In this document: positions 3,944 through 31,613 of the stretch, piece after piece
How the letters are laid out: every line of letters starts with the position of its first letter
How positions within the stretch are numbered: the first letter of the stretch is position 1
Assembly (NCBI RefSeq): GCF_004349055.1
Contig: NZ_SMKX01000021.1
Location: 1-64,000, forward strand
Length of the DNA: 64,000 nt
Origin: Kribbella antibiotica
GTDB lineage: Bacteria; Actinomycetota; Actinomycetes; Propionibacteriales; Kribbellaceae
Direction of reading: 5' to 3'
The notes under the pieces: generated by a model
The model's input: the letters and a program-made list of their open reading frames with translations, nothing else
Databases searched by the model: none
Told to the model about the DNA's origin: nothing
Translations under genes and position numbers: made by a program

Positions 3944-3984
3944 CTGTAGTCTCCACCAGATCTTGTTGGCTGGGAGGGACGTGG

Positions 3985-5601
3985 ATGAGGCGGCGCGGGG
4001 TTCGGATCACAGGTGCTGCCCTGGCAGTCGCGTTGTTGCTGGCCGGCTGCACCGACAGTGGCGGCAGCACCGACAGCGGCGACGCCGGACCAAAGCCTGC
4101 TCCCCCAACAGTGACCGTGCCGACCGGTCCGCCGGCTGCTGCAGCGGCGGCGCTCGGTCCGACCGGCCCCAGTACGGCGGCGCCTTGCCGAGGGACCTCG
4201 ATCGCGGTCGGAGCCGACCCGCAGCGCGTCATCGACAGCAGGCCGGCCGGTACGACGTACTGCTTCGCGCCCGGCGTGCATCGGATCGCCCGGCCGATCG
4301 AGCCACGCGACGGTGACACCTTCGGTGGTGGAGCCGGTGCAGTGCTGACCGGATCGGTGCCAGTGACCGAGTGGTCGCGGGAGGGTTCCACCTGGGCTGC
4401 GCGTGGTGTGCTGCCGGCGGCCTACCCGCTCAAGGGCCAGTGCGAGGACAACCGCACGAACCCCTGCCAGCTTGGCGAACAACTCTTCCTCGGCGGCGTC
4501 CACCTCAACCGGGTCATGAGCCTGGACGAGCTGAAACCGGGAACCTTCTTCGGCGACTACGCCACCAACGCGCTCTACGTCGCCGACGACCCGACCGGCA
4601 ACCCGACCGGCAACCCAGCAGGCAACCCAGCAGGCAAGGCCGACGCCACCCCAGCCGCCAACCCAGTCGGCAAACCAGCCGAGCTGTCACGGACCACGAC
4701 GGCCTTCGCCCGCGGGGCCCAACGAGTGACCGTAACCGGGCTGACGATCGAGCACTTCGCCTCCCGCCCGCAAGGCGGTGCGCTGGAGGCCGGCCCCGGC
4801 TGGCGGGTGACCGGCAACGAGGTTCGCTGGAACCACGGCGTCGGCGTCATGCTGATCGAGGCCGACGGTGCCGAGGCCGTCCGGAACACGATCGCCGACA
4901 ACGGACAGCTCGGCCTCGGGCAGTACAAGTCGGCCGATGTCCGGGTCACCGCGAACCTGGTCACCCGGAACAACACCGACGGGTTCTGGATCGCCGACTG
5001 GGAGTCCGGCGGGATCAAGTCGACCCGCTCGTCCGGTGAGATCTCCGGGAACGATGTGGTCGCCAACCGCGGGGTCGGGATCTGGAGCGACATCGCCGAG
5101 TACGACCGGCGGATCAGCGCGAACCGGATCCGCGACAACGCGGCCGACGGGATCCGCTACGAGATCAGCTACGCCGGGGTGATCGAGAAGAACGTTGTCG
5201 AAGGCAACGGCTTCGGGACCGGCCGGGGTTCCGGCGGCAGCCTGTGGGACGGCGGCGGGATCAACGTCAACACCTCATCCGACGTCCAGGTCCGCGGCAA
5301 CCTGGTCAAGGACAACCGCAACGGCATCTCGATCCAGTCCCGGACCCGGGGTGAGGGGCCGCGGGGCCGGTACGTCCTCAGCAACGTGGTCGTCGAAGGC
5401 AACCTGATCGTTCTCGGTGGCCCGGCGGCCAGCACCGGCGTGGTCGAGAACAAGGGCTCCCCCACGCAGTCCGGCGCGGTCACCTTCCGCCGCAACAGCT
5501 ACCAACTGCCCACCAGCACCCGCTTCGGCTACCGCGGCAAGGAGCTCAGCTGGCCGCAGTGGCAGGAAGCCGGCTTCGACCAGGATTCGGTCAAGAGCTA
5601 G
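3985..5601 (+). CDS. Secreted lipoprotein with right-handed parallel beta-helix
   Basis: A 538-residue exported protein. The ATG at 3985 follows GGGAGGG and opens a lipoprotein signal: Arg-rich n-region, hydrophobic stretch, lipobox LAGC with Cys at residue 22. A Ser/Gly/Pro/Ala-rich linker follows, then a beta-helix domain with repeated Asn-rich rungs such as VRWNHGVGVMLIE, ITANLVTRNN-like turns and GNLVKDNRNGISIQ. Beta-helix proteins of this kind are often polysaccharide lyases or epimerases, but no catalytic set is obvious. A short NPTG/NPAG repeat interrupts the domain near residues 203–230. The C-terminus (WPQWQEAGFDQDSV) resembles that of the second beta-helix protein at 47988. Probably acts on, or binds, the surface polysaccharide. 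Confidence 0.85.
   Translation: MRRRGVRITGAALAVALLLAGCTDSGGSTDSGDAGPKPAPPTVTVPTGPPAAAAAALGPTGPSTAAPCRGTSIAVGADPQRVIDSRPAGTTYCFAPGVHRIARPIEPRDGDTFGGGAGAVLTGSVPVTEWSREGSTWAARGVLPAAYPLKGQCEDNRTNPCQLGEQLFLGGVHLNRVMSLDELKPGTFFGDYATNALYVADDPTGNPTGNPAGNPAGKADATPAANPVGKPAELSRTTTAFARGAQRVTVTGLTIEHFASRPQGGALEAGPGWRVTGNEVRWNHGVGVMLIEADGAEAVRNTIADNGQLGLGQYKSADVRVTANLVTRNNTDGFWIADWESGGIKSTRSSGEISGNDVVANRGVGIWSDIAEYDRRISANRIRDNAADGIRYEISYAGVIEKNVVEGNGFGTGRGSGGSLWDGGGINVNTSSDVQVRGNLVKDNRNGISIQSRTRGEGPRGRYVLSNVVVEGNLIVLGGPAASTGVVENKGSPTQSGAVTFRRNSYQLPTSTRFGYRGKELSWPQWQEAGFDQDSVKS
4590..4637 (+). repeat. Four 12-bp tandem coding repeats (NPTG/NPAG)
   Basis: Two units of cccgaccggcaa and two of cccagcaggcaa, decaying further to about 4675, encode a Pro-Gly-Asn-rich insertion in the beta-helix lipoprotein. 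The reading frame is kept. The second beta-helix protein at 47988 lacks it, so it looks like a recent expansion in a surface loop. Confidence 0.85.
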
Positions 5602-5635
5602 TCGGTCAGGAGCTAGTCGGTCAGGAGCTGACGGC
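5593..5635. repeat. 15-bp tandem repeat between convergent genes
   Basis: The unit gagctagtcggtcag recurs about 2.7 times across the stop codon of the beta-helix gene and that of the convergent polymerase gene. The last copy contains GTCAGgagCTGAC, a small hairpin. It may contribute to bidirectional termination, although the stem is weak. Confidence 0.6.
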
Positions 5636-6964
5636 GAGTCTTCGATGTCGGATGCGGTCGGCATCGCAGATCGCCGCCGCCACCAGGAGATGGACAGTCA
5701 TCGAGGACAGATCCGACAGGCCGCTCTCGTTCAGCGAGGCGGCCGACACGTAGCCGAGCAGCAGCGCGCCGCAGGCCCGGATGTACAGCGTCGGGGCCCG
5801 CAGGACCGAGATCCAGGCCAGGATCAGGGCCAGGCCAACGATCAGGACAGCCAGCACGCCGGTCTCCCAGTACAGGCCGAGCCAGCTGTTGTCGATCGCC
5901 ATCACGTCGATATCGCCCTCGCCACGGCGGAGCAGAATCCGCTTGTTGCCGAGTCCGTGGCCGAGCAGCGCGGTCTGGAACGACACCTTCTCGTCGAGCA
6001 CCGCCTGCCAACTGGTGGTGCGGCCGCTGAGCGAGCTGATCTGCCGAGTGCCCTGGCCGCGCAGAAGCCAGTTGTGCAGCGAGCCGATGGTCAGGAAGGC
6101 GATACCGAGCAACGCCGGTACGCCGAGCGTCGCCAGCCGGCCGAACCAGGTCTTCCGGGTCAGCAGCAAGGCCAGGACCAGCCCGAACGCGACGGCCGCG
6201 GCCGACGTACGGGTTCGGCTGGCCGCGACCAGGATTCCGCCGAGGCCGACCAGAGTCGCCGCCGACAGCAGCGACAGTTTCTTGCAGAGATAGCCGATGA
6301 TCGCCAGCCCGAGCAGGATCGCGCCGACCTCGCCCACGCGCGGCGGCAACATCGGGATGATGACGCCCTGGAGCCGGGAGCCAGTGCCGAGCGAACTGAG
6401 CGGCCGCCAGGCCAGGCTGGGTGCGTACGCAAGGCTGAGTACGACGGTGATCGCCAGCAGGATGTGCGCCCACAGATGGGCCCGGACCAACCGCTCCGGC
6501 ACCTGCACGAGCGGCCGCCAGAGCAGGAAGACCAGCACCAGGCCGATCAGGAAGCGGACCAGCCGGGTCAGCGGGCCCATCGGCTCGGCGAGCAGGAAGG
6601 CCGTGGCGGTCGCGAACAAGACATACCCGACGTACAGGCTGCCGGTCGGATTGACTCGCGTCCGGAACCCGGGCTTGGTCGCGGCCAAGGCGATCAAGAA
6701 GATCGCGCCGAGTAGCAGGCCCTTCATCACGCTGTTGGTGGAGCCGGTCGTGCCCTGCGGTGCGGCGACCCGGGACGACCACGGCTGGACACCGAGCACG
6801 AACAGACACCACAGCGCCAGCCAGAACCACGCCGGCTTCTCCGAGGGAGTCTCGACCGTGCCCGGGACCGCCTGGGCCAACCGGTCCCGGCGCGGCACCC
6901 AGCCGCGTCCGACCCGGTACTCCGCACCGGTCCGGAACAGCTCGGCCGCTGGCTGCCTGGCCAA
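5621..6964 (-). CDS. O-antigen ligase / Wzy-type polymerase family membrane protein
   Basis: A polytopic membrane protein of about 447 residues, with roughly ten hydrophobic segments and the Wzy_C-type region (SRTRTSAAAVAFGLV followed by a loop containing GRTTSWQAVL and LGHGLGNKRILL). It should polymerise repeat units or ligate glycan at the outer face of the membrane. The start is uncertain: TTG at 6964 (3 bases after the upstream Wzz stop, with coding-like third-position GC from there) or GTG at 6898 (425 residues); neither has a good ribosome site. It is paralogous to the protein at 45523, which carries matching THTRTALIALLVGG and GFGLSNKSF motifs. Translated with the Wzz-like gene just upstream. 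Confidence 0.82.
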   Translation of the reverse strand: MARQPAAELFRTGAEYRVGRGWVPRRDRLAQAVPGTVETPSEKPAWFWLALWCLFVLGVQPWSSRVAAPQGTTGSTNSVMKGLLLGAIFLIALAATKPGFRTRVNPTGSLYVGYVLFATATAFLLAEPMGPLTRLVRFLIGLVLVFLLWRPLVQVPERLVRAHLWAHILLAITVVLSLAYAPSLAWRPLSSLGTGSRLQGVIIPMLPPRVGEVGAILLGLAIIGYLCKKLSLLSAATLVGLGGILVAASRTRTSAAAVAFGLVLALLLTRKTWFGRLATLGVPALLGIAFLTIGSLHNWLLRGQGTRQISSLSGRTTSWQAVLDEKVSFQTALLGHGLGNKRILLRRGEGDIDVMAIDNSWLGLYWETGVLAVLIVGLALILAWISVLRAPTLYIRACGALLLGYVSAASLNESGLSDLSSMTVHLLVAAAICDADRIRHRRLAVSS

Positions 6965-6966
6965 GA

Positions 6967-8592
6967 TCAGCGAACGTGCGGGGTGGCGGACTCCGCAGGC
7001 GTGTAGTTGAGCGGAATGCCGAGGGTCTCGTCGTGGTCGGAGGCGCCGATCAGGACGACGCCGAGCACGGGAGCGCCGGCATAGTGCAGCGCGGCGGTGA
7101 GCCGGGCGACGTCCATCTCCTTGTCGTGGCCGATCTGCACCACGAGGACCGACGCATCCACGGCGGCGGCCAACGGCGAGATGCCGTGCCGGCCGACCGC
7201 GGCGGGACCGTGGATGACGACCGAGTAGCCCGGCGGCAGGTCGGCGACGATGCCCGGGACGAGGGACGGACCGACCGCCGACGCGGTCTCCTCGTGGTTC
7301 ATCCCCGGCGGAAGCACATAGAGGTCGGACACCGGGCCGGGACGGAAGAGTTTGCGGGCCCGGATCGCCCGGGTTGCCGCGGGCTCCATGACCAGGTCGG
7401 TCAGGCCCTCGTGGCCGGTGACGTGCGGCAGGACCGGCGTACCCTCCACGTCGGCGAGGACCAGCAGGGTCTCGCGACCGTCGCGGGCATTCGCCTCGGC
7501 CATGGCCAGCGCGATACCGGCTGCGTTCGGGCTCGGCGACGCCGAGACGACCAGCAACGCGCCCGGTCCACCACTGGCGAAGGCGCGCGCGCTCAGCTCG
7601 CGGCGCGCCAGCGCGCCACTCGCCTCGGCGCCCAGCGCAGTGATCTCGTACGGCGGAAGCTCCGGCGCGGACCGGTGCCACATCCGCCGCCGGTTCCCCT
7701 CGGAGGCCGCGATGACCGGCGAACTGGAAGCCCGCGCAGCCTGGTCCCGGGTCAGGATGTACGGCGTCAGGTGGGACCGCAGGAGCGCCAGACCAAACCC
7801 GAGCACCAGCCCGAGGATGCCGCCGACCAGGATGTCCCGCGCAACCATCGGCGACGAGGAGGCAGTGTCGGTCGTGGCCGGTGTGACCAGCTCGCTCCCG
7901 GCGCCGACACCGGTCAGCGCCTTGCGCATCGCGGACGCGTCGTCGGCGGCCTGCCGGGCTTCGGTGGCCAGCCCGACCCGCTGGTCTCGCAACTGGCTCG
8001 CGGTCTGCGTATCGCCCCGCGCGACCGCCTCGTCGATCTGGCTGACCAGCGACCGGGACTGCAGGTTCGCGGTCTTGGCCCGGTCTTGCGCCTGGCCGGC
8101 CAGCGTTGTCAGCAAGGCCTTGGCCGCGTCGTTGCGCTGCTTCAGATAGACAGTCGCGATCGCGTTCGCCCGCTGCACTGCCTCGGACGCCGTCGGACCG
8201 TCGGTCGTCACCAGGTAGGCGTTGTCGGTGACCGCCTTCACCCGCGTCACCGCGGCGAGGTCCCGGATGGTTTCGTCGGTCGTCGGCAGCCCGAGGGTCT
8301 GCGCGACTCCGCGCAGCAGCCGCGGACTGGCCATCACCCGCGCCTGGGTCTCGGCCGGCAGATCCATGCCGAGCGGGCCGGTCTTGTCGGTGCTGCTGGG
8401 CAGCTTCCCGACCAGAGCAGGCGGCACCGCCGGGCCGATGACGAGCTGGCTGGACGCCGTCCAGCGCTGGGTCTGGGCCAGCGCGAAGACCGACGCACCG
8501 ACCAGGCCGAGCACGACACAGGCCAAGATCAGCCACTTCTGCCGTAGCAGTGACTGAGCGGTTTCCCGCCAGACCACAGTGCCCGGTTCCAT
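6967..8592 (-). CDS. Wzz-like chain-length determinant fused to a degenerate BY-kinase domain
   Basis: A 541-residue inner-membrane polysaccharide co-polymerase. TM1 is at about residues 16–38, TM2 near 245–265, with a long extracytoplasmic region rich in Ala/Arg/Gln between them that is predicted to be coiled. The cytoplasmic tail looks like a bacterial tyrosine-kinase/ParA fold (LLVVSASPSPNAAGIALAMA, then TLLVLADVEG, then YSVVIHGPAAVG and SVLVVQIGH). Where active BY-kinases have the GxGKT/S P-loop, this tail reads SPSPNAAG, with no Lys or Thr, so it is probably a non-catalytic scaffold. The ATG at 8592 has GAGGTTGGG directly upstream. Divergent from the beta-propeller gene at 8750. It would set chain length together with the polymerase at 5621. 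Confidence 0.85.
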   Translation of the reverse strand: MEPGTVVWRETAQSLLRQKWLILACVVLGLVGASVFALAQTQRWTASSQLVIGPAVPPALVGKLPSSTDKTGPLGMDLPAETQARVMASPRLLRGVAQTLGLPTTDETIRDLAAVTRVKAVTDNAYLVTTDGPTASEAVQRANAIATVYLKQRNDAAKALLTTLAGQAQDRAKTANLQSRSLVSQIDEAVARGDTQTASQLRDQRVGLATEARQAADDASAMRKALTGVGAGSELVTPATTDTASSSPMVARDILVGGILGLVLGFGLALLRSHLTPYILTRDQAARASSSPVIAASEGNRRRMWHRSAPELPPYEITALGAEASGALARRELSARAFASGGPGALLVVSASPSPNAAGIALAMAEANARDGRETLLVLADVEGTPVLPHVTGHEGLTDLVMEPAATRAIRARKLFRPGPVSDLYVLPPGMNHEETASAVGPSLVPGIVADLPPGYSVVIHGPAAVGRHGISPLAAAVDASVLVVQIGHDKEMDVARLTAALHYAGAPVLGVVLIGASDHDETLGIPLNYTPAESATPHVR

Positions 8593-8653
8593 CCCAACCT
8601 CATTCCGTCGATCAGCGCCTCAGGATAGCCACGACGGCAAGGTGTGGCGAGTC

Positions 8654-8721: not shown

Positions 8722-8749
8722 GTCAATGTCCTAGGGGGGACATCACAGC

Positions 8750-10948
8750 ATGAAGAGATGGTTAGTCACGTCTGCCACCGCCGCGGCGCTGATCGCCGGA
8801 TCGCTGGCCTACGCACCGGCTGCACAGAGTATTGAGGCGTCACTCTCGGCGACTGACAGTCCGGTCTGGCAGACCAACGCCAGCGTTCAGGGTTTGGCCG
8901 TCGCGGCCGGCAAGGCATATGCCGGGGGCCGGTTCACCAGCGTCCGCCCGCCGGGCGCCGCCGCCGGAACCAGTGAGGTCGCACAGGCCTACCTGGCAGC
9001 CTTCGACCAGAGCACCGGCGATCTGGCCGCCGCGTTCACGCCGGTCCTGAACGATCAGGTGTACGCCGTTGCCGCGTCCGCGGACGGATCGCGCATCTTC
9101 GTCGGCGGTGACTTCACCACTGTCAACGGCGTCACGCGGAATCGGATCGCCGCCTTCGACACCGCCACCGGCACACTGGTCGCGAGCTGGAAGCCGAGCG
9201 TTTCCTACCGGGTCAAGACGATCGCCGTCTCCGGGAACACCGTGTACTTCGGTGGCTCGTTCGGCCTCGTGAACGGCCAGGACCGGCCCCGCCTCGCCGC
9301 GGTGACCGCCGACACCGGCACTCTGTTGCCCTTCGCACCCAACGTCAACGGCGACGTGTACGCCGTGGACGCCACCGACGACGGTTCGAAGGTGTACGCC
9401 GGCGGCCAGTTCAGCCAGGTCAATGGCACCAGCCAGAACACCGTGGCCAGCCTGGACCCGGCGACGGGCGCCGTACTTCCCTTCCCCGGTGCGTCCGCCG
9501 TACCGCCGCCGAACGGGTCCTGCACGACCCGCGTCAAGTCGATCGACGCCAGCGGGGACACCGTCTACTTCGGGAACGGTGGTGACGGCGGCGGTTGCTT
9601 CGACGGGACCTGGGCCGTCGACACCGCCACCAACGCGCTGAAGTGGAAGAACCAGTGCCTGGGCGCGACCGAGGCCGTCAAGGTCATCAACGGCTGGCTC
9701 TACAAGGGCTCGCACGCCCACGACTGCGCGAACCAGGGCGCCGGCGGCTTCCCGCAGGGCTTCGGCTACCGCTTCCTGCTGAGCCAGAAGCTCACCGACG
9801 GCTCGCTCGGGCCCTGGTTCCCGAACACCAACGCAGGTCCGCCCACCGAGGTCGGCCCGCTGGCGTTTGCGACCGGCGGCAGTGACCTGTGGGTCGGTGG
9901 CGACTTCACCACGACGAACGGCGTCACCCAGCAGGGCCTGACCCGCTTCACCAACGCGGGGCCCGGTGCGGCACCCGCCAAGCCGGCGAAACTCACGCCA
10001 TACAGCGTCGAGCCAGGCGCCGTACAGATTCACTTCCCGACCGTTGTGGACAATGACGACAGCACGCTGACCTACCGCTTGCTCAAGGGCTTCAGCAACA
10101 CCACCATCGCGACCTGGACCGCCAAGTCGACGCCGTGGGACCGACCCTGGCTGCACTACACCGACACGGCAGTGACACCAGGTGAGTCGACCAACTACCG
10201 CGTCGAGGTCACCGACGGCAGTACGACGCTGCGCGGCAACTACTCCGACCCGGTGACAGTGGCCAGTTCGAAGTCGTCGGCGTACGACCAGATCATCAGC
10301 TCCGACGGCCCACAGGCGTACTGGCGCCTCGGTGAGCCCTCCGGTACGACGACCTCGGTCGACGCGTCCGGGCAGAGCAACAACGGTGCTTTCACCGGTA
10401 TGACGCTCGGCGCGAGCGGTGCGATCGCGGGGAACACCGCTGCGACCACCAGCTCGAGCAGTGGCCGGATGGTCGGCGAGAAGGCGTTCAGCATGCCGCA
10501 GCAGTTCACGGTCGAGGCCTGGGTGAAGCAGAGCTCTAGCCGTGGCGGGCGCATCCTCGGCTTCGGCAGCTCCAAGACCGGCAACAGCGCCGGGGGCGGC
10601 GACCGGATGCTCTACATGCGGTCGACCGGCGCGATCCTGTTCGGCGTCAACGACGGCGCCCAGCGGACCGTGACCAGCCCCTCGGGCAAGAACGACAACC
10701 AGTGGCACCACGTCGCCGGGACCTTCGACAACGGCCTGCTCAAGCTGTTCGTCGACGGCGTCCTGGTCGGCAGCACCAGCACCGGCACAGCGTCCCTGTA
10801 CTACGGCTGGTGGCGGATCGGGTACGACAACACCAGCGCGTGGACCGGCGGCGGCGCCACCCAAACCGGGCTGGCGATCGACGAAGCAGCGGTCTACCCG
10901 TATGCCCTGAGCCCGTCCCAGGTACAGAGCCACTACGATGCACGGTGA
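8750..10948 (+). CDS. Secreted beta-propeller / FN3 / LamG protein 1
   Basis: A 732-residue exported protein; the ATG follows AGGGGGGA (8733–8740). The Sec signal peptide covers about residues 1–27, ending in an AQS-type cleavage site. Residues about 40–410 hold repeats of the type VGGDFTTVNGVTRNRIAAFD, alternating with VYAVAAS/VKTIAVS strands, as in beta-propellers. Then comes a fibronectin-III-like domain (about 415–505) and a C-terminal LamG/concanavalin-like domain (about 510–732: AYWRLGEPSG, FTVEAWVKQ, WHHVAGTFDNG). It carries the block KGSHAHDC, shared with the next two genes. Three paralogues in a row next to polysaccharide export genes suggest a family of glycan-binding surface proteins. 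No enzyme activity is evident. Confidence 0.85.
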   Translation: MKRWLVTSATAAALIAGSLAYAPAAQSIEASLSATDSPVWQTNASVQGLAVAAGKAYAGGRFTSVRPPGAAAGTSEVAQAYLAAFDQSTGDLAAAFTPVLNDQVYAVAASADGSRIFVGGDFTTVNGVTRNRIAAFDTATGTLVASWKPSVSYRVKTIAVSGNTVYFGGSFGLVNGQDRPRLAAVTADTGTLLPFAPNVNGDVYAVDATDDGSKVYAGGQFSQVNGTSQNTVASLDPATGAVLPFPGASAVPPPNGSCTTRVKSIDASGDTVYFGNGGDGGGCFDGTWAVDTATNALKWKNQCLGATEAVKVINGWLYKGSHAHDCANQGAGGFPQGFGYRFLLSQKLTDGSLGPWFPNTNAGPPTEVGPLAFATGGSDLWVGGDFTTTNGVTQQGLTRFTNAGPGAAPAKPAKLTPYSVEPGAVQIHFPTVVDNDDSTLTYRLLKGFSNTTIATWTAKSTPWDRPWLHYTDTAVTPGESTNYRVEVTDGSTTLRGNYSDPVTVASSKSSAYDQIISSDGPQAYWRLGEPSGTTTSVDASGQSNNGAFTGMTLGASGAIAGNTAATTSSSSGRMVGEKAFSMPQQFTVEAWVKQSSSRGGRILGFGSSKTGNSAGGGDRMLYMRSTGAILFGVNDGAQRTVTSPSGKNDNQWHHVAGTFDNGLLKLFVDGVLVGSTSTGTASLYYGWWRIGYDNTSAWTGGGATQTGLAIDEAAVYPYALSPSQVQSHYDAR

Positions 10949-11024
10949 GCAATCTGTCGGGGAGTTGTAGCTCAAAGTCATCATGCGCTTGACTGATGCC
11001 TCCCCGCCCAGTCAAAGGAACTTG

Positions 11025-12545
11025 ATGAAGAAGCTAGTTCTGGTTGTCGTCACCGCCGCGGCCGTTGTGGCCGCGGCGCTGATCCCTTCCGGCCCACCGG
11101 TTCAGGCCGCCTCCAAAGGCTTCGGCTCGGCGGTTTCCGCCGTCAAACAGACGACCTGGCAGACCAACGCCAGCGTGACCGCGCTGGCGGTGGCCGGCAA
11201 TACCGTCTACGCCGGTGGCCTCTTCACCAGGATCCGCCCGCCGGGTGCCGCCAAAGGGGTTCAGGAGTCGGTGCGCACTTATGTTGCCGCCTTCAACAAA
11301 ACCACCGGCGCCCCGACCACCTTCGCCCCGAAGCTGAACGGCGCCGTCCGCGGCATCGCCACCAGCCCGGACGGCAAGTGGGTGGTGCTCGGTGGTGACT
11401 TCACCACCGTGAACGGCGTCAAGCGCAGCAAGATCGCGAAGTTCAGCGTAGCGACCGGCCAACTGGTGGCCGGCTGGGACCCGGTCGTCTCGGCCCGGGT
11501 GAAGAGCATCGACATCTACGGCAACAGCGTCTTCTTCGGTGGCGCATTCACCAAGGTCGACAGCAGAGTCAGTAATCGCCTGGCCGCAGTCAAGCTGACG
11601 GACGGCACGCTGCTGCCCTGGAACCCGAACGCGGACGACGACGTCTACGCGGTCCGGGCCTCCGGCAATGGAACCCGGGTGTTCGTCGGCGGCCCGTTCG
11701 AGACGATCAACGGCAAGGACCACTACTCGCTGGCGATGGTCAACAGCACCAACGGCACCGCGCTCGCGATGCCGGCCGCGAGCCTGATCCCGAAGCCGAC
11801 CTGGGGCTGCACCACCCGGGTCAAGGTGATCGAGACCCAGGGGAACAAGGTCTTCGCCGGCAACGGCGGTGACGGCGCGGGCTGCTACGACGGCATCATC
11901 GCCGCCGACGCCACCACCGGCAAGGCGCTGTGGCAGAGCAACTGCCTGGGCGCGAACGAGGCGCTGAAGGCGATCGACGGCTGGCTGTACAAGGGCTCGC
12001 ACGCCCACGACTGCAGCCAGGACGGCTCGTTCGGCGACGGCACCGGCACGCACTTCCTGCTGGTCCAGAGCATCGCCAACGGCAAGATCGGCCCCTGGTT
12101 CCCGAACACGGACGCCGACCCGAACAGCACCACCCAGGTCGGCCCGCTGGCGTTCGCCGGGGACAGCACCGGTCTGTGGGCCGGCGGTGACTTCCTGAAG
12201 GTCGCCGGTAAGGGCCAGCAGGGGCTCACCCGGTTCAGCAGTGCGCCAGGTGGTGCGGTCCCCGCCGTACCGAAGGCGCCGGCGCTGACGGCGGGTGCCG
12301 CCAAGGTGACGCTCAAGTTCACCGACGTGTACGACGTCGACAACATCACTCTGACCTACAGCGTCTACCGCGGGACCACCAAGATCGGTTCCTACAAGTA
12401 CAACTCGTACTACTGGGACAAGCGGAAGACCTACACGGTGACCGACACCGGAGTGAAGTCCGGCCAGACGGTCGGATATCGAATTGACGTCACCGACGAC
12501 CGCAATACCGTCAAGTCCTCGACAGCTTCCGTCAAGGTGCACTAG
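11025..12545 (+). CDS. Secreted beta-propeller / FN3 protein 2
   Basis: A 506-residue paralogue of the preceding protein, without the LamG domain. The start at 11025 is preferred over an upstream in-frame ATG because AAAGGAA precedes it and the Sec signal peptide (MKKLVLVVVTAAAVVAAAL) begins there. Propeller repeats span about residues 40–415, including VLGGDFTTVNGVKRSKIAKF and the shared YKGSHAHDC block. The C-terminal FN3-like domain includes ITLTYSVYRGTTKIG. Probably co-transcribed with the gene upstream (76-base gap without a clear terminator). Cell-surface or secreted; ligand unknown. Confidence 0.85.
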   Translation: MKKLVLVVVTAAAVVAAALIPSGPPVQAASKGFGSAVSAVKQTTWQTNASVTALAVAGNTVYAGGLFTRIRPPGAAKGVQESVRTYVAAFNKTTGAPTTFAPKLNGAVRGIATSPDGKWVVLGGDFTTVNGVKRSKIAKFSVATGQLVAGWDPVVSARVKSIDIYGNSVFFGGAFTKVDSRVSNRLAAVKLTDGTLLPWNPNADDDVYAVRASGNGTRVFVGGPFETINGKDHYSLAMVNSTNGTALAMPAASLIPKPTWGCTTRVKVIETQGNKVFAGNGGDGAGCYDGIIAADATTGKALWQSNCLGANEALKAIDGWLYKGSHAHDCSQDGSFGDGTGTHFLLVQSIANGKIGPWFPNTDADPNSTTQVGPLAFAGDSTGLWAGGDFLKVAGKGQQGLTRFSSAPGGAVPAVPKAPALTAGAAKVTLKFTDVYDVDNITLTYSVYRGTTKIGSYKYNSYYWDKRKTYTVTDTGVKSGQTVGYRIDVTDDRNTVKSSTASVKVH

Positions 12546-12549
12546 AACT

Positions 12550-12576
12550 AGGGGCCTGCCCGCCCATGCAGGCCCT
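12550..12576 (+). terminator. Hairpin downstream of beta-propeller gene 2
   Basis: The sequence GGGCCTGC-ccgcccat-GCAGGCCC forms an 8-bp GC-rich stem directly after the stop codon at 12545. The following run (tatagtcg) is not T-rich, so termination may be partial. Confidence 0.55.
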
Positions 12577-12659
12577 ATAGTCGCTCGCCCGGCCGCCCGC
12601 CGGTACCCCGCACTTCTGCCCGAAGTACACCTAGCCGCACGGGGCGGCCCGATTTACAT

Positions 12660-12678
12660 TGAACCCAAGGGGGGTTCA
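12660..12678 (+). promoter_or_regulatory. Hairpin enclosing the ribosome-binding site of beta-propeller gene 3
   Basis: TGAACCC (12660–12666) can pair with GGGTTCA (12672–12678). The Shine-Dalgarno-like AAGGGGGG occupies 12667–12674, in the loop and one arm, five to eight bases before the GTG at 12683. Pairing could limit ribosome access. Confidence 0.4.
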
Positions 12679-12682
12679 TACA

Positions 12683-14206
12683 GTGAGGAAACTGATTGCT
12701 GCGCTCAGCGCGGCAGGTCTCGGCGTTGCCGGGCTCCTGGTCGCTCTGCAGCCGGCGCAAACCGCCGTCACCACCGCAGGTCCGCTCACCGCGCTGCCGG
12801 CCACGGCCTGGCAGACCGACGCGAGTGTGCTCGGCCTCGCCGTCGCCAAGAACAAGGCGTTCGTCGGTGGCCGCTTCCTGAACGTCCGTCCGCCGGGCGC
12901 CGCACCGGGCGCCAGTCAGACCGGCCGGACCTATCTGGCCGCGTTCAACCAGACCACCGGTGCGCTCGACACCACTTTCAACCATGTACTGAACGGCATC
13001 GTCTGGTCGATCGTCGCCTCGGCGGACGGCTCGAAGATCTATATCGGCGGTGATTTCACCAAGGTCGACGGCGTCACCCGGAATCGGCTGGCCGCCTTCG
13101 ACGCCACCACCGGCGCGCTGATCGCGAACATCAAGCCCAGCGTGTCCTACCGGGTCAAGACGCTCGCCGTCGGCGGCAACAGCCTGTACTTCGGTGGTTC
13201 GTTCGGCCTGGTGAACGGCATCGCCCGTAACCGCGCCGCCGCGATCAGCACGGTCGACGGCACGCTGCAGGCCTGGAACCCGAACCTGGACGCCGACGTC
13301 TACGCGATCGACGCGGCCGACGACAACTCCAAGGTCTACCTGGGCGGCACGTTCACGAAGGTCGGAACCACCAGCCGGTGGGCCGTGGCCAGCGTGAACA
13401 ACTCCACCGGCGCGATCCTGCCGTTCTCCGCCGCTTCCGCGGTCCCGAATCCGACCTCAAGCTGCAAGAGCCGGGTCAAGGACATCGAGACGGTCGGTAC
13501 GACGGTCTACTTCGCCAACGCCGGTGACGGCGGCGGCTGCTTCGACGGCACCTGGTCCGCAGATGTTGCCACCGGCAACCTGAAGTGGAAGAACACCTGC
13601 CTGGGCGCCACCGAGGCCATCACGATGGTGCAGGGCTGGCTGTTCAAGGGCTCGCACGCCCACGACTGCGGTGCTGCCACGGCCGGTCCGGCGTTCCCGG
13701 AGGGCTACGGCAACCACTACCTGCTGCTGCAGAACCCGGCCGACGGCAAGATCGGGCCCTGGTTCCCGAACACGAACGCCGCGGCACCGACCCAGGTCGG
13801 CCCGCTCGTCTCAGCCACCGGTGGCTCGGACCTGTGGGTCGGCGGCGACTTCACCACCGTGAACGGGGCCGGCCAGCAGGGCCTGACCCGCTTCACCGGT
13901 CTCGGCAACGGCGCCGTACCGCTCGGCCCGGCGCTGCCGGCACTGTCCAACACGGTCACCAAGCAGGTCAAGGCGACCGTGCAGACGTCACTCGACAACG
14001 ACGACGTCACGCTCACCTACCGGCTGCTGCGCGGGGCGACGAACACGGTCGTGGCCACCACGACCGCGAACTCCACCTTCTGGAGCCGGCCGAGCATCAC
14101 GCTCACCGACACCAACGCACCGGTCGGTTCACAGCAGTACCGCATCGAGGTCTACGACGGGAAGAACACCGTCCGCGGCGGCTACTCGACCATCACGGTC
14201 AGCTAG
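12683..14206 (+). CDS. Secreted beta-propeller / FN3 protein 3
   Basis: The third paralogue, 507 residues from the GTG at 12683, chosen because AAGGGGGG lies 8 bases upstream; a TTG at 12659 is the alternative. The Sec signal peptide covers about residues 1–30. Propeller repeats such as IYIGGDFTKVDGVTRNRLAA, the block FKGSHAHDC near residue 315, and a C-terminal FN3-like domain (VTLTYRLLRGATNTVVA) mirror genes 1 and 2. It is closer to gene 1 in the central region (both have SVSYRVKTL/I followed by YFGGSFGLVNG), suggesting serial tandem duplication. A strong hairpin terminator follows. Confidence 0.85.
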   Translation: MRKLIAALSAAGLGVAGLLVALQPAQTAVTTAGPLTALPATAWQTDASVLGLAVAKNKAFVGGRFLNVRPPGAAPGASQTGRTYLAAFNQTTGALDTTFNHVLNGIVWSIVASADGSKIYIGGDFTKVDGVTRNRLAAFDATTGALIANIKPSVSYRVKTLAVGGNSLYFGGSFGLVNGIARNRAAAISTVDGTLQAWNPNLDADVYAIDAADDNSKVYLGGTFTKVGTTSRWAVASVNNSTGAILPFSAASAVPNPTSSCKSRVKDIETVGTTVYFANAGDGGGCFDGTWSADVATGNLKWKNTCLGATEAITMVQGWLFKGSHAHDCGAATAGPAFPEGYGNHYLLLQNPADGKIGPWFPNTNAAAPTQVGPLVSATGGSDLWVGGDFTTVNGAGQQGLTRFTGLGNGAVPLGPALPALSNTVTKQVKATVQTSLDNDDVTLTYRLLRGATNTVVATTTANSTFWSRPSITLTDTNAPVGSQQYRIEVYDGKNTVRGGYSTITVS

Positions 14207-14346: not shown

Positions 14347-14559
14347 ATGAAACGCAGCTCGCGCCGAGTCCTCCAGGTGGCCGGAACCATCCTCGCCGGT
14401 ACGGCGTTCGTCGCCGTCCTGTTCATCGGTCATCACGAACCGGAGTCGCGGATCTGGAAGACCGCTGCCTCGGTCACTGTCACGCTGGCCGAGAAGATCC
14501 GCGGCAAGTCGATCACACCGGGGGCGGTTGCCGATCTGCTGCCCGGCGATGCGCGTTGA
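14347..14559 (+). CDS. Small single-span membrane protein (hypothetical)
   Basis: A 70-residue open frame from the ATG at 14347 (MKRSSRRVLQVAGTILAG). It has a basic N-terminus, one hydrophobic segment at about residues 8–28 and a short polar tail (AASVTVTLAEKIRGKS). No clear ribosome site precedes it, and its last 47 bases overlap the convergent flippase gene, so it may not be real. It lies between the terminator of the propeller genes and the flippase. No family recognised. Confidence 0.35.
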   Translation: MKRSSRRVLQVAGTILAGTAFVAVLFIGHHEPESRIWKTAASVTVTLAEKIRGKSITPGAVADLLPGDAR

Positions 14560-15796
14560 TCGCCCTGCGGGCCTGCGACCACCAGAGCAGCAGGGTGCAG
14601 AACGAAGCACCGGCCAGCCCCCACGCGGCCCCCTCGGGACCGCCCAGGTAGGCGCCTCCGACGCCGCAGACGATCAGAACCACCGAAGACACGAGCCGGA
14701 CCCCGAGACCGCGCGAGGCGGCCGCCAGCGCCCGAAGGATGGCGAAGGCACCGGCGTTCGAAGCGCCGAGGGCCTGCAGCAGGATGACCGGGACCAGGAC
14801 GGCGTGCGCCTGGGCCCAGACGCCGGGGCCAAGAAGCTCCCGGCCGACCGCCGGCGGCAGCAGCAGGAAGACGGCTCCCCAGGCGAAAGCTCCCGCCCCC
14901 ACCCCGAGTGAGATCGCCAGTCCGACCAGCCACAGCCGCCGGTACGAGTGCGCCAGTGCGCGGGTGGCCTCGGGGACAGAGATCATCCGGATGCCTTGGT
15001 TGAGCACGTTCACGGGCCCAAGCAGAACCTGAGCGCCCCGGATCCCCGCGGTCGCGACGAGACCGGCCGCAGCGGTGATCCCGAGCATGTAGACCTGAAT
15101 CGTGCCGGAGACCGCGAGCAGCTCACCGACGTACTTCGGGGTCAGGTCCCAGTTCCGGTGCACCCATTCGCGGATCAGCTGGCGGCGCGGGGCGATCCCG
15201 GCCTGGAAGCGGCCGGCCACGGCCGCGACAACGGCGCCCAGGCCCCACGCGAGGGTGAGCGAGAACGCGGACGCAGTGTCGGTCAGGTAGAGCCCGCCGA
15301 AGATCGCGAGCATGGCAACAAGCCAGATGAGGTCGTTCAGGAAGGCTTTCTGGCCCTCCCCGATCACGAAGAACGCCCAGCGCCACGCATCCTGCAGCAG
15401 CAGCCCGGGCATGGTGACGGCGAAGGCGATCAGCACGCCCTTGGACGGCACCCCCGGGAACAGTGCGATCGCGAGCGCCACCACAAGCCCGATAAACCCG
15501 ATCAGCAGCGCGGTCGCCGTACTGGCTCGGACGGCGCGTTCCCACTCCGGCGTGCGGTCGCCGGAGTGCCGGACCGAGAGTGGTTCGGTGGCGACCGCCC
15601 GGGACACGTTGAGCGCGATTGTGTAGCCGCCGAAGGCCAGCGCGTAGATACCGAAGTCGGCGACCGAGCTCGAGCGTGCGACGACCAGACCGACCGCCAG
15701 ATTGCTCAGGCTGGACAGAGCCTGATCAGCCAGTCCCCAACCAGCACGACCAGCCGGTCCGGCCAGTCGACTCAGTTTGGGCGGCCGAAATCTCAC
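14513..15796 (-). CDS. Oligosaccharide flippase, Wzx-like (first copy)
   Basis: A 427-residue polytopic membrane protein of the MATE/MOP polysaccharide exporter type, predicted to move undecaprenyl-linked repeat units to the outer face. About twelve hydrophobic segments are visible; the N-terminus GWGLADQALSSLSNLAVGLV resembles that of the second flippase at 21746 (SWGIADQAVSSLGNFLLGVF), as does the region LLLQDAWRWAFFVIGEGQK. The start is a GTG at 15796, ten bases downstream of the wecG-like stop; GGGAG is very close to it, so a slightly different start is possible. Last gene of the minus-strand block. Confidence 0.88.
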   Translation of the reverse strand: MRFRPPKLSRLAGPAGRAGWGLADQALSSLSNLAVGLVVARSSSVADFGIYALAFGGYTIALNVSRAVATEPLSVRHSGDRTPEWERAVRASTATALLIGFIGLVVALAIALFPGVPSKGVLIAFAVTMPGLLLQDAWRWAFFVIGEGQKAFLNDLIWLVAMLAIFGGLYLTDTASAFSLTLAWGLGAVVAAVAGRFQAGIAPRRQLIREWVHRNWDLTPKYVGELLAVSGTIQVYMLGITAAAGLVATAGIRGAQVLLGPVNVLNQGIRMISVPEATRALAHSYRRLWLVGLAISLGVGAGAFAWGAVFLLLPPAVGRELLGPGVWAQAHAVLVPVILLQALGASNAGAFAILRALAAASRGLGVRLVSSVVLIVCGVGGAYLGGPEGAAWGLAGASFCTLLLWWSQARRAINAHRRAADRQPPPV

Positions 15797-15805: not shown

Positions 15806-16582
15806 TTACACAGCGCGCGGCGGGCGGCGCAGCACGCCGAACGCGAAACGCGGGATCCCGATCAGATAGCGCTTCCACAGCCGCCGCGGTTCCTTGTAGA
15901 GCCGATAGCTCCACTCCAGACCGGCCTTCTGCATCCACTCCGGCGCACGATCCAGCCGGCCGGTGTGGAAGTCGAAGGCCGCGCCGACACCGATCAAGAT
16001 CGCTGCGTTCAGCCGCTCGCGGTGCTCGGCCATCCAGCGCTCCTGCTTCGGCGCGCCAAGCCCAACCCAGATGATGTCCGGGTGGGCCGAGTTCATCCGC
16101 TCGACCGTCTCGGCGTCTTCTTGCAGAGTCAACGCCCGGTACGGCGGGCATTCCACCCCGACCACCTTGAGCGCCGGGTGCTTGTCCTGGAACGTCATCC
16201 GCAGCTCGTCGGCAACGCCCTCGGCGCCGCCGTAGAAGTACTGCGTCCAACCCCGGTCTGCAGCCTCGGCCATGATCCGCTCCAGCAGGTCCGGCCCGGC
16301 GACGCGGCCCATCTGCTCGAAGCCGGCCTTCTTGCCGGCCCAGACCAACGGCATCCCGTCCGGTACGACGAGACCAGCCGTGTTGTAAACCGTCTTCAGC
16401 TGCTGATCAGCCCGCGCGTGCAGCAGCGCGTTCATGTCGGTGACGCAGACGAGCTGCCGCTCGCCGTTGTCGATCCAACGCTCGAAAACGCCGACCGTGT
16501 CCTCGAGATTGGTGACGCTGACCTGGATGCCGAGCACATCGACACGGTCCGCCGCGGTTGCAGGGGCGTGCAAGTCGGTCAT
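15806..16582 (-). CDS. WecG/TagA/CpsF family glycosyltransferase (GT26)
   Basis: A 258-residue cytoplasmic or peripheral membrane transferase, expected to add the second sugar (ManNAc-, ManNAcA- or Glc-type) to a lipid-linked sugar. Family hallmarks: [13 protein letters not shown] with the conserved Asp/Asn near residues 48–52, [11 protein letters not shown] near 74–84, and the C-terminal [11 protein letters not shown] and [11 protein letters not shown] motifs. The start overlaps the gmd stop by four bases (ATGA), indicating translational coupling. The basic, aromatic C-terminus ([13 protein letters not shown]) is typical for membrane association in this family. Confidence 0.92.
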
Positions 16583-17568
16583 CGGCCATCCTCCGGGTTC
16601 AGCAGGGCCACGTCCGCGTCGACCATGATGCGGACCAGCTCGGGTACATGCGTCTGCGCCTTCCAGCCCAGCTCGGTGTTCGCCTTGGACGCGTCACCGA
16701 TCAGCGAATCGACCTCGGTCGGCCGCTCGTACCGGGAGTCGTAGTCGACGTACTTCTCCCAGTCCAGCCCGACGTGGTCGAACGCCAAGGAGACAAAGTC
16801 TCGCACCGAGTACGACGAACCAGTCGCGATCACGTAATCCGCGGGAGTGTCGGCCTGCAGCATCCGCCACATGCCCTCGACGTACTCCGGCGCGTAACCC
16901 CAGTCCCGGCAGGCCTCCAGATTGCCCAGATACAGCCGATCCTGCTTGCCCAGCTTGATCGCCGCCACCGCGCGGGTGATCTTCCGCGTCACGAACGTCT
17001 CGCCGCGCCGCGGCGACTCGTGGTTGAACAGGATCCCGTTCACCGCGAACATCTCGTACGCCTCGCGGTAGTTCCGCGTCATCCAGTAGCCGTAAAGCTT
17101 CGCAGCCCCGTACGGCGACCGCGGGTAGAACGGCGTCAGCTCGTTCTGAGGCGGTGGCGTGGCACCGAACATCTCCGACGAGGACGCCTGGTAGAACCGG
17201 CAGTCCAAGCCGATCATCCGGATCGCCTCGAGCAACCGCGTCGTCCCCATGCCGGTCGTGTCACCGGTGTACTCGGGCTCGTCGAACGACACCCGCACAT
17301 GCGACTGCGCTGCCAGGTGATACACCTCGGCCGGCTGGATCGACGCCAGCAACGTCACCAACCGCGACCCGTCGGTCAGATCTCCGTAATGCAGGAACAA
17401 CCGCTTGTCGCTCTGATGCGGATCCTCATACAGGTGGTCGATCCGCTTGGTGTTGAACGTCGACGCGCGCCGGATCAGACCGTGGACTTCGTAGCCCTTG
17501 GCAAGCAACAGCTCCGCGAGATACGACCCGTCCTGGCCGGTGATGCCCGTGACAAAAGCCTTCTTCAT
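16579..17568 (-). CDS. gmd: GDP-mannose 4,6-dehydratase
   Basis: Converts GDP-D-mannose to GDP-4-keto-6-deoxy-D-mannose, the first step towards GDP-L-fucose and other GDP-6-deoxyhexoses. 329 residues, a normal short-chain dehydrogenase length. NADP-binding motif [12 protein letters not shown] is near residue 8; the catalytic Ser/Thr region SSSEMFG and YGAAKLYG (YxxxK) lie near 128–155. The Gmd-specific stretch [19 protein letters not shown] is present near 180–198. It overlaps fcl by four bases (17565–17568) and wecG by four, so the three are one coupled operon. Confidence 0.96.
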
Positions 17569-18509
17569 ACAGTGTGCTCCAGATACCAGGCGTAGGTGGC
17601 GGCCACACCGTCAGAAAGGTCGATGGTCGGCTTCCACCCCAGCGCCTGCAACCTGCTCACATCGAGCAGCTTGCGCGGCGTCCCGTCCGGCTTGGAAAGA
17701 TCGTTGCTCACAGCACCTTCATACCCGACGACCCGAGCCACCAGCTGGGCCAGCTCCTGGATCGTCACGTCCTCACCGACACCGACATTGATCGGCCCCG
17801 GCTCGTCGTACGTGTCCAGCAAATGCAGGCACGCATCGGCCAGGTCGTCCACGTGCAAGAACTCGCGGCGCGGCGTCCCGGTCCCCCACAGAACAACCTC
17901 CGGCGCCCCCGACACCTTGGCGTCGTGGAAGCGCCGGATCAGCGCCGGCAACACATGCGACGACGTCAGGTCGAAGTTGTCATTGGGCCCGTACAGGTTG
18001 GTCGGCATCGCCGAGATCCAGCGCAACCCGTACTGCCGCCGGACTGCCTGAACCTGCATGATCCCGGCGATCTTCGCGATCGCATAAGCATCGTTGGTCG
18101 GCTCGAGCTCACCGGTCAGCAGACTCGACTCACGAATCGGCTGCTCGGCGTACTTCGGATAGATGCACGACGATCCGAGGAACAACAACCGCGGCGTCCG
18201 TACGGCGAGCGCCGCGTCCATGAGGTTGACCTGGATCCGCAGGTTGTCGCTGAGGAACTCGGTCGGGTGATCGCGGTTGGCGAGAATGCCACCGACCCGG
18301 GCCGCGGCATCGATCACCACGTCCGGCTTGTGCTCGGCCAGGAAGGCGAAGGTGGCAGCACGATCCCGCAGATCCAGCTCGGACGACGAGGCACCGATCA
18401 GCCGGGTGAACCCGGCCGCCTCGAGCCGCCGCCAGATGGCCGAACCAACCAGACCTCGATGGCCTGCAACATAGACGGTCGCGTCACTAGCCTCAATTAA
18501 TTTGGCCAT
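17565..18509 (-). CDS. fcl: GDP-L-fucose synthase
   Basis: Dual epimerase/reductase that turns GDP-4-keto-6-deoxy-D-mannose into GDP-L-fucose using NADPH. 314 residues. Cofactor motif [14 protein letters not shown] is near residue 17; AAARVGGI near 68; SSCIYP and YAIAKIAG (YxxxK) near 113–147; [10 protein letters not shown] near 172, all characteristic of WcaG/Fcl. Directly downstream of the initiating transferase (1-base gap) and overlapping gmd. Together with gmd it predicts L-fucose in the polysaccharide. Confidence 0.95.
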
Positions 18510-18510
18510 C

Positions 18511-20001
18511 TCAATACGCTCCCGCGCCGTAGATCACCGCACGCACGGTCTTCCAGAGAATCAGCAGATCAAGCGTCATCGACCAGTTGTCGACGTACCG
18601 CAGGTCGAGGCGGACCGACTCGTCCCAGGACAGGTCGCTGCGGCCGCTGACCTGCCACAGGCCGGTGATGCCGGGCTTGACCAGCATCCGGCGGGAGTCG
18701 TCGGCGGCGTACAGCGCGACCTCCTCGGACAGCGGTGGGCGCGGACCGACCATCGACATGTCGCCGCGGAGGACGTTGAACAGCTGCGGCAGCTCGTCCA
18801 GCGAGAAGCGCCGGATCCAGCGGCCCAGCGGAGTCATCCGGGGGTCGTCGCGCATCTTGAAGATCACGCCGTTGCCGTCGCTCAACGCATAAAGATCTCC
18901 GAGGCGCTGCTCCGCATCGGAGTACATGCTGCGGAACTTGAGCATGGTGAACTCGGCGCCCGCCCGGCCGACCCGCTGCTGCCGGAACAGGACCGAGCCC
19001 GGGCTGGACAGCCAGACGGCCAGCGCCAGGCCGATCAGCAGCGGCGACAGCAGGACGATCATGCCGAGCGCGAGAAGGCGGTCGAAGACGGCCTTGATCA
19101 GGTGCGGTCCCCCGCTGACCGAGGGCCGCTCCAGGTGCAGCAGCGACAGGCCGGCGACCGGGCGGACCGAGATCCGCGGACCGGCGACCTCGATGATGCC
19201 CGGCGAGACGATCAGCTCGATACCGCGCTGCTCCAGCGCCCAGGACAACCGGCGCAGCGAGTGGCCGACCAGCTCCGGATCGGTGGAGATGGCAACGACA
19301 TCGACGGTATGCCGGTCGGCGGCCGCCACGATGTCTGCCTCATCCAGCTCATCGGCCTGCAACGGGCCGTCGGGGGCGTCGTCATCGCGCGGCCGGCAGG
19401 TCGCCACGACCCGGAATCCGTCGGTCGGGCGGCTCTCAAGGTGCTCACACAAGGTTGCGGCCGGGCCACTGTGCCCGACCACGAGAACCCGATGCATACA
19501 ACGCCCTCGAACGCGGTGCCGGTGCAGGTCCTTTCGCAACGCATACCGCAGGAAAAGCGCGGCCGCACACATCACCGGAATCGCCAGTACGACGAAGCCG
19601 CGCGCAATCTCGGTCTTCGTCACGTACGACGCCATCGCGACGGCCGCGGTGAGGCCGACCCCGGATCGCAGCAACGACCGGAACTCGTCCGGCCCGGTCC
19701 CGAAGTACCGGGGGTCGTAGCCCTTGGACAGCGCAACCGCGGCCACCCAGGCCAGCGGGAGCAGCGCACTCACGATCAGGTAGCCGCTCCCGACGCCCGA
19801 ACCGAAGCGGGCCAGGAGCGCGACGAAGACACCGAGCATCGCGGCCAGGAAGTCGCCACCGACAGCGGCCCAGCGGTACACACCGACCCAGCGGGGCTCG
19901 GTAGAGCGCGATGAGCGCGGGACGATCGCGGGGACCTCATGCGGAACGACCCAGAACGGACGACGGCCATCCACCGCGTCCGGCGCCTCAGCTCCGCTCA
20001 C
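18511..20001 (-). CDS. Polyprenyl-phosphate glycosyl-1-phosphate transferase (WbaP/PglC superfamily), copy 1
   Basis: Initiating enzyme of the polysaccharide pathway: transfers a sugar-1-phosphate from a nucleotide sugar to undecaprenyl phosphate. 496 residues; GTG start at 20001 preceded by GAGGAAG. Four N-terminal TM segments (about 45–150), a Rossmann-like central domain (RVLVVGHSGPAATLCEHLE), a fifth membrane segment (about 310–330), then the catalytic domain with KFRSMYSDAE, DELPQLFNVLRGDMSMVGPR and GLWQVSGRSDLSWDESVRL. First gene of the minus-strand set, with a regulatory region upstream. Strikingly similar, including its N-terminal WVVPHEVPAIVPRS, to the second copy at 50701. Confidence 0.92.
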   Translation of the reverse strand: MSGAEAPDAVDGRRPFWVVPHEVPAIVPRSSRSTEPRWVGVYRWAAVGGDFLAAMLGVFVALLARFGSGVGSGYLIVSALLPLAWVAAVALSKGYDPRYFGTGPDEFRSLLRSGVGLTAAVAMASYVTKTEIARGFVVLAIPVMCAAALFLRYALRKDLHRHRVRGRCMHRVLVVGHSGPAATLCEHLESRPTDGFRVVATCRPRDDDAPDGPLQADELDEADIVAAADRHTVDVVAISTDPELVGHSLRRLSWALEQRGIELIVSPGIIEVAGPRISVRPVAGLSLLHLERPSVSGGPHLIKAVFDRLLALGMIVLLSPLLIGLALAVWLSSPGSVLFRQQRVGRAGAEFTMLKFRSMYSDAEQRLGDLYALSDGNGVIFKMRDDPRMTPLGRWIRRFSLDELPQLFNVLRGDMSMVGPRPPLSEEVALYAADDSRRMLVKPGITGLWQVSGRSDLSWDESVRLDLRYVDNWSMTLDLLILWKTVRAVIYGAGAY

Positions 20002-27704: not shown

Positions 27705-27708
27705 CAGC

Positions 27709-28845: not shown

Positions 28846-28859
28846 TGCGTCTCCCCCAG

Positions 28860-30349: not shown

Positions 30350-30378
30350 CTTTGGTTCCTTCCCCCCACTGCGTTTCT

Positions 30379-31611: not shown

Positions 31612-31613
31612 GG

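Follow-up and report, generated by a model that had tools for sequence, protein, structure and literature searches.

The DNA described here, called the window throughout, is a 64,000-nucleotide stretch of the soil actinomycete Kribbella antibiotica (contig NZ_SMKX01000021.1, positions 1 to 64,000, forward strand). It carries three tandem open reading frames (ORFs), all on the + strand, whose products P1, P2 and P3 join a predicted β-propeller to an FN3-like domain, with a LamG domain following in P1. They are the local members of a family of propeller proteins, probably exported, and the association of this family with surface-glycan genes is strong. The genes and their parts, in the coordinates of the window, are as follows.

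8750..10948, + strand: P1, 732 amino acids; probably exported; propeller, FN3-like domain and LamG.
8867..9964, + strand: P1 seven-bladed propeller core, residues ~40-405, as predicted by AlphaFold2 and aligned by VIA-align to WD40 propellers.
9584..9607, + strand: P1 DGGGCFDG block, with C283 and the acid D285, placed by DSSP in the putative B-C loop of blade 5.
9704..9727, + strand: P1 KGSHAHDC block, with H322, H324 and C326, placed by DSSP in the putative B-C loop of blade 6.
9959..10267, + strand: P1 FN3-like domain, residues 404-506, with a Foldseek match to Fn3 and a predicted local distance difference test score (pLDDT) of 95.6 when modelled in isolation.
10478..10927, + strand: P1 LamG (PF13385), residues 577-726; 82.8 bits, cutoff 27.6.
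11025..12545, + strand: P2; propeller and FN3-like domain, without LamG; probably exported; likely start ATG 11025, longest ORF from 10983.
11991..12014, + strand: P2 KGSHAHDC block.
12683..14206, + strand: P3; propeller and FN3-like domain, without LamG; probably exported; likely start GTG 12683, longest ORF from 12659.
13646..13669, + strand: P3 KGSHAHDC block.

The ORFs lie where a preliminary description of the window had placed three secreted propeller proteins in tandem, and, compared with P1, P2 has 48% identity and P3 59%. The likely starts of P2 and P3 fall slightly inside their longest ORFs. The signal peptides of that description find support in hydrophobic, signal-type N-termini in all three proteins; export is judged from this hydropathy. 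The DGGGCFDG block of P1 recurs in P3 and has DGAGCYDG as its counterpart in P2. The 24 nucleotides encoding KGSHAHDC (starting at 9704, 11991 and 13646) are identical across the three genes despite the divergence of the proteins, which may reflect codon preference or gene conversion. Promoter and terminator scans around P1-P3 gave nothing clearly above chance.

The predicted anatomy also agrees with what had been described. The AlphaFold2 model of P1, built from a 31-row alignment, has a pLDDT of 88.2 and a predicted template modelling (pTM) score of 0.79, and shows a seven-bladed WD40-like fold across the whole propeller domain. Among the best 50 rows of a VIA-align comparison with solved WD40 propellers, Z is 29.6-30.7, the root-mean-square deviation (rmsd) is 2.2-3.4 and 273-304 residues are aligned, commonly over the range 26-405 of P1; the top matches include WDR5, Tup1 and RACK1. 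These are matches to WD40-type propellers and are uninformative on function. The DSSP strands of the model suggest seven blades, with blade 5 at residues 258-301, blade 6 at 309-347 and blade 7 at 370-400. In the WD40 sequence family PF00400, P2 alone is listed, at 16.1 bits and under the 27-bit cutoff. The isolated FN3-like domain of P1 finds a titin Fn3 domain as its best match in the PDB (Foldseek E 3e-4, template modelling (TM) score 0.61), and Pfam fn3 lists no match in P1-P3. LamG is confined to the first protein, with no PF13385 match in P2 or P3. The top Foldseek rows for whole P1 (GH43 arabinanase, trans-sialidases) were set aside: TM is 0.2-0.3 and rmsd ~20, with propeller-plus-lectin chains matched piecewise.

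The family alignment comprises 115 rows, including P1-P3. Its sources were ORFs scoring over 300 bits in a first set and over 400 bits in a second, ORFs over 300 bits in loci of 20 genera, and one Actinomyces oris protein; the copies of the window fetched as L001-L003 were left out. One fragment row does not contain the region of interest, so 114 rows are informative, many of them from one genus. The comparison of blade positions used 113 of the 115 rows, with an effective number of ~50 at 70% identity.

The preliminary description had called the KGSHAHDC block invariant. This holds among P1-P3, where the block is identical, but K319 and D325 vary across the family (D325 is Asp in 57%, weighted) and only H-x-H-x-C recurs, with one row reading H-x-S-x-C. 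What is preserved is preserved closely: H322, C303, C326 and G305 are unchanged in 114/114 rows and H324 in 113/114, and an acid always occupies position 285 (Asp in 94 rows, Glu in 20). The Cys behave as pairs: C303 and C326 occur together in all 114 rows, whereas C258 and C283 occur together in 81, are jointly missing from 33 and never stand singly. Because their members are present or absent together, the two pairs are probably disulfides, and the conserved Cys are probably structural. In blades 5 and 6, the pairs would each link the B-C loop to the start of its own blade.

Further conserved residues appear when the blades are compared at equivalent positions, an argument that rests on the sequence repeats and DSSP. 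Where the GGxF...NG repeat turns, conservation is 0.96 for R66 in blade 1, 0.97 for N390 in blade 7 and 1.00 for the acid of blade 5 (Asp 0.62, Glu 0.38), against 0.51, 0.33 and 0.64 in blades 2, 3 and 4. The x of GGxF is acidic at 0.92 in blade 7, whereas its commonest residue reaches 0.18 to 0.54 in blades 1 to 4. H322 and H324 sit in the corresponding loop of blade 6. The conserved His, acid, Arg and Asn thus fall in the contiguous blades 5-6-7-1, while the equivalent positions of blades 2-4 are variable, and the loop residues of blades 5-6-7-1, which may face one shared space, form a candidate pocket. The earlier suggestion that clustered His and Cys mark a metal or active site survives in part: conserved polar residues that are not part of the repeat do lie in neighbouring blades, but the Cys pair like disulfides and D325 varies. 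A metal site combining Cys and His was rejected for the Cys, which behave as two pairs.

The association with glycan genes can be read from the surroundings of P1-P3 in the window, and from loci elsewhere. The genes around P1-P3 are as follows.

3685..5601, + strand: right-handed beta-helix protein (PF13229, 108 bits); longest ORF, overlapping the preceding gene.
5613..6830, - strand: putative Wzy/O-antigen-ligase-like membrane protein, judged from its sequence and its place beside Wzz; no Pfam match at E 0.01.
6967..8592, - strand: Wzz-type chain-length protein with a kinase-like C-terminal part, a divergent neighbour (PF02706, 35 bits, cutoff 25.5; eps_fam 27.1 bits, below cutoff).
14513..15796, - strand: putative Wzx-type flippase-like membrane protein, so called for its sequence, position and conservation; Pfam gives nothing above cutoff.
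15806..20001, - strand: WecG-type glycosyltransferase, GDP-mannose 4,6-dehydratase, epimerase and initiating sugar transferase.

Of the Wzx/Wzy-type components of the window, Wzz and the sugar transferase are thus recognised by Pfam above cutoff, and the flippase and polymerase by sequence and place only.

The survey of gene neighbourhoods proposed in the preliminary description upholds its placement of the propellers between Wzz and flippase genes: homologues of both flank the propellers in 20/20 Kribbella-type loci. At least one polysaccharide-gene homologue lies nearby in 30 of the 31 loci found by a contig scan, and six loci of Arthrobacter, Haematomicrobium and Actinotalea have WecG, flippase and Wzz homologues nearby in a different order. 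Beyond Kribbella, 20 loci, one per genus and picked from the match listings (not every match), were compared with 20 control stretches of the same genomes, fixed at round-number positions before reading. The bait, the same for both, consisted of 11 genes of the window and 10 of A. oris, picked from known family loci. Polysaccharide-gene homologues were found at 17 of the 20 family loci (two or more at 15) and at none of the 20 controls; counted by ORF, the bait matched 52 of 242 in the family loci, family members being among the 242, and 0 of 320 in the controls. The role at the cell-surface glycan that had been proposed from one neighbourhood is supported by the recurrence of such neighbourhoods far outside Kribbella.

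Pfam, which does not depend on the bait, gives the same picture. For this comparison, genes of 1000 or more amino acids, family members above 100 bits and all but the seven nearest genes were left out, and the longest gene per locus was then also dropped (138 to 118 near genes, 140 to 120 control genes). Among the 118 near genes (25 of 67 families listed) there are 17 Glyco_trans_1_4, 10 Glycos_transf_2 and six CDP-OH_P_transf (CDP-alcohol transferase) matches, five each for epimerase, beta-helix and DUF1972, and two for Wzy_C. None of those families is among the 25 of 142 families listed for the 120 control genes.

In Kineosporia locus L034 (at 5737-13518) and in locus L029 of an uncultured actinobacterium, sulfate-activation-type genes (CysD, CysN, CysQ) lie beside the propeller gene, accompanied in L034 by a sulfotransferase and a GH26-type protein. 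No match to CysD or CysN was found in the other 61 of the 63 sequences searched. The presence of these genes implies that some of these glycans may be sulfated, and the glycan of L034 and L029 may be a candidate sulfated bacterial exopolysaccharide.

Other parts of the window are also rich in sugar genes. The stretch 33973-52227 encodes UDP-glucose dehydrogenase, heparinase II/III and a protein that fuses ADH with GFO/IDH/MocA. It also has another initiating sugar transferase, another beta-helix protein, and weak GNVR/Wzz-like and Wzy_C-like proteins, both below cutoff (the Wzy_C match lies at 45523-46755). At 25843-32690, two C-methyltransferases, a class-III aminotransferase, a nucleotidyltransferase and an epimerase follow one another in what looks like a branched or amino deoxy-sugar pathway.

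In the genome of the window (9.28 Mb, 348 contigs), a profile built from P1-P3 has three matches, P1-P3 themselves; the wider 31-row profile has 11, with P1-P3 and no other among the matches listed. Within the genus, 35 of 38 genomes have a match of at least 400 bits and three (G013, G017, G037) have weak propeller matches only; the best match among the nearest relatives is in Kribbella albertanoniae, at 93% identity in the best segment. At least 400 bits are also reached in 40 of the 394 genomes of a class sample (the window's own included), from 12 families, and in 8 of the 396 genomes of a phylum sample, most of them also drawn in the class sample; both counts are lower bounds, two candidates having been scored per genome. 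Stop codons lie within a few of the genome matches included in these counts, among them G165, G656, G672 and G712. The 31 loci of the contig scan are all titled as Actinomycetota organisms, the scan patterns being derived from P1-P3 so that remote members would be missed. Homologues occur in Arthrobacter, Kineosporia, uncultured Streptosporangiaceae and the oral species A. oris. The relative on A. oris plasmid NZ_CP116225.1 (32% identity over 96% of P1, tblastn E 1e-66) is annotated 'LamG domain-containing protein' and sits inside a glycan cluster. Because relatives occur in other orders, as in A. oris, chance likeness is excluded. Matches on a Leptospira plasmid cover just the first blades.

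A FastTree tree of 113 rows, rooted at the midpoint, assigns P1, P3 and P2 to three separate clades of Kribbella-type loci, among which no other row falls (P1, 26 rows, support 0.998; P3, 15 rows, support 1.0; P2, 24 rows, support 0.65). The duplications therefore predate most of the Kribbella species sampled, yet occurred within that lineage, and the Kribbella trio consists of old paralogues, of which P1 alone has LamG. The 20 Kribbella-type loci (L004-L022 and L024) hold two copies in six cases, three in 12 and four in two. Both gene order and the tree put locus L016 with Kribbella; the name of its record, Streptomyces sp. SID13031, is probably wrong. Tandem arrays of larger related Kribbella propellers (950-1230 amino acids), without H-x-H-x-C, occur in L078 (5974-19356) and L079 (9409-18677), the latter adjoining the same sugar-transferase genes. 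On the 11-kb Arthrobacter alpinus plasmid pRK01 (L081, 9036-11130), a family copy matched in three pieces and annotated as two hypothetical proteins appears broken.

Probable export, the glycan-gene neighbourhood and a near-invariant His pair beside paired Cys together imply that the family probably handles surface polymer outside the cell. The reading favoured here, to which we give a probability of about 0.5, is that P1-P3 are extracellular, non-catalytic glycan-handling partners of Wzx/Wzy-type and related pathways. An exported seven-bladed propeller, its blade 5 and 6 B-C loops braced by two putative disulfides, would be followed by the FN3-like domain and often by LamG, PKD or Ig modules. 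Beyond the membrane, the proteins would act on the polymer that the adjacent genes, of Wzx/Wzy or related type, produce. The polymer would most likely be gripped at the loop face of blades 5-6-7-1, by R66, D/E285, H322, H324, D/E385 and N390, with LamG as a possible second contact, and the chain would in this way be held, ordered or passed on at the cell surface. The observed anatomy, conservation, Cys covariation and genomic association support such a picture, with its predicted fold and its putative disulfides, surface site and glycan binding. The modules point the same way: six scanned homologues carry extra LamG, PKD, Ig and FN3 modules with no catalytic Pfam domain, which fits a role in binding or holding glycans.

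Several points weigh against this reading. Sharing a cluster with glycan genes is no proof of binding; a conserved His pair, together with an acid and an Arg, would suit an enzyme equally; and LamG and WD40-like folds also bind proteins. Conserved polar residues are found beyond blades 5-6-7-1 (S110 and D112 in blade 2, 0.94 each; R179 in blade 3, 0.93), Q41 and Q394 are likewise highly conserved, and P2 has Ala at the N390 position. Among the loci, three of the 20 non-Kribbella ones (L135, L136, L138) have no bait match, and L033, a second Kribbella copy, has no polysaccharide-gene homologue in two comparisons.

The alternative that survives best, possible but rated below even odds, makes the propeller an enzyme acting on glycan, whether a lyase, a hydrolase or a transferase, and whether metal-assisted or His-catalysed. 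It would trim, release or attach Wzy-made polymer, with LamG, FN3 and PKD as accessories. The near-fixed H322, H324, D/E285 and R66 (0.96, weighted), all assigned to blades 5-6-7-1, would suit such an enzyme, and the module layout resembles that of secreted carbohydrate-active enzymes. In homologue L135, one Ig-like region has a further match to PF18370, the beta-sheet module of rhamnogalacturonan lyases (35.1 bits, cutoff 27.8), and the window holds uronate-related genes for glucuronate isomerase, UDP-glucose dehydrogenase and heparinase II/III. There is a precedent in the seven-bladed propeller lyase FoRham1, whose His85, His105 and Arg166 lie on the anterior face according to the accessible part of PMC8377490. 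Sequence comparison argues the other way: P1-P3 match no Pfam or NCBIfam enzyme family above cutoff, and a PDB sequence profile search, whose 22 matches at E 0.1 were LamG relatives apart from two short, weak ones, found no propeller enzyme. A known enzyme family matching over the full length, the finding that the preliminary description had said would count against it, came out of none of the Pfam, NCBIfam and PDB sequence searches. No Tyr reaches a conservation of 0.95; the best, Y318, stands at 0.94 and is Phe in P3. A more specific form, somewhat unlikely, would see the family as a class of extracellular glycan enzyme not yet described. Its active site would be made up of H-x-H, acid and Arg of neighbouring blades, the disulfides would hold the loops, and the protein would finish, trim or attach Wzx/Wzy polymers; no described factor for these tasks on actinomycete surfaces was found among the papers listed by searches of the open-licence literature.

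Distinctly improbable is a structural or adhesive surface matrix protein, whose propeller and LamG would bind proteins or foreign glycans and whose gene would travel with glycan clusters since both shape the surface. The large homologues, with many PKD, Ig, FN3 and LamG modules, have the multi-module layout usual in surface adhesins, and WD40-like propellers are mostly binding platforms. Adhesin binding faces often vary, however, and here some loop residues are fixed across the family; nor did a simple pattern find an LPXTG-like motif or hydrophobic tail in the 115 rows, a number of them truncated where their locus ends.

Radical copper oxidases combine a conserved Tyr-Cys cofactor with one more Tyr and two His. 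That P1-P3 are GlxA-like redox or cofactor enzymes, copper-oxidase propellers aiding glycan deposition, is very improbable and already largely refuted: Streptomyces lividans GlxA is an extracellular propeller copper enzyme that CslA needs for cellulose synthesis (excerpt of PMC11022532), but P1-P3 have no galactose-oxidase family match, their conserved Cys covary in pairs and leave none for a Tyr-Cys cofactor, and no Tyr is conserved to 0.95. Identity as a radical copper oxidase was rejected, conservation showing no Tyr-Cys site. The quinohemoprotein amine dehydrogenase beta model (TIGR03907) was likewise discarded, P1 (16.2 bits) and P3 (20.4 bits) falling far below its cutoff of 223.2.

Little seems to be described of how Wzx/Wzy-type polymers are retained, finished or released outside the membrane of actinomycetes, and P1-P3 belong to a recurrent, probably exported partner of such loci. 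The named residues (H322, H324, D285, R66 and the two Cys pairs) make the question directly testable, and a defined family could replace annotations such as 'hypothetical' or 'LamG domain-containing protein'. Among the papers listed by searches of the open-licence literature, none on this family was found. The sole paper found there to name DUF5122 models the repeat (PMC8078820, in part); the accessible text of PMC12419801 mentions propellers as ligand-binding domains of other systems; and in the available portions of two papers on Wzx/Wzy-type clusters of Actinoplanes (PMC13390465, PMC12691653) a term search met neither 'propeller' nor 'LamG'.

Set beside known systems, the propeller, FN3 and LamG parts are familiar, and their combination with this residue signature and the tie to glycan loci appears undescribed. 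No curated model in Pfam or NCBIfam covers P1-P3 over their full length, and no NCBIfam model is above cutoff. The closest sequence families are the Pfam models DUF5122 (PF17164, cutoff 27 bits: P1 40.8 and P3 31.6 above, P2 24.4 below) and Rax2 (PF12768, cutoff 28.8 bits: P1 39.5 and P3 35.5 above, P2 20.9 below). P1 and P3 match both in their first blades, with the same GGxF...NG repeat and the propeller fold, but these matches span one repeat or part of the propeller and include neither the H-x-H-x-C motif nor the Cys pairs nor the FN3/LamG end. The LamG/concanavalin-like domain PF13385 is shared by P1 and the six scanned homologues (6/6), and is taken to be accessory because P2 and P3 lack it.

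P1-P3 are assignable neither to the propeller lyases nor to GlxA. In the polysaccharide lyases PL24, PL25 and PL42, as far as the available part of PMC8377490 goes, a propeller fold (seven-bladed in FoRham1) carries paired His and Arg on one face, and the P1-P3 family likewise conserves paired His and R66; it differs in having no sequence-family match to these lyases and no strictly conserved counterpart of their Tyr. GlxA, as presented in the same excerpt of PMC11022532, is an exported actinomycete propeller that serves glycan synthesis at the outer surface, and in this P1-P3 resemble it. GlxA, however, is a membrane-anchored radical copper oxidase working with a synthase, whereas the P1-P3 family lacks a conserved Tyr-Cys site and has Wzx/Wzy-type genes as its partners.

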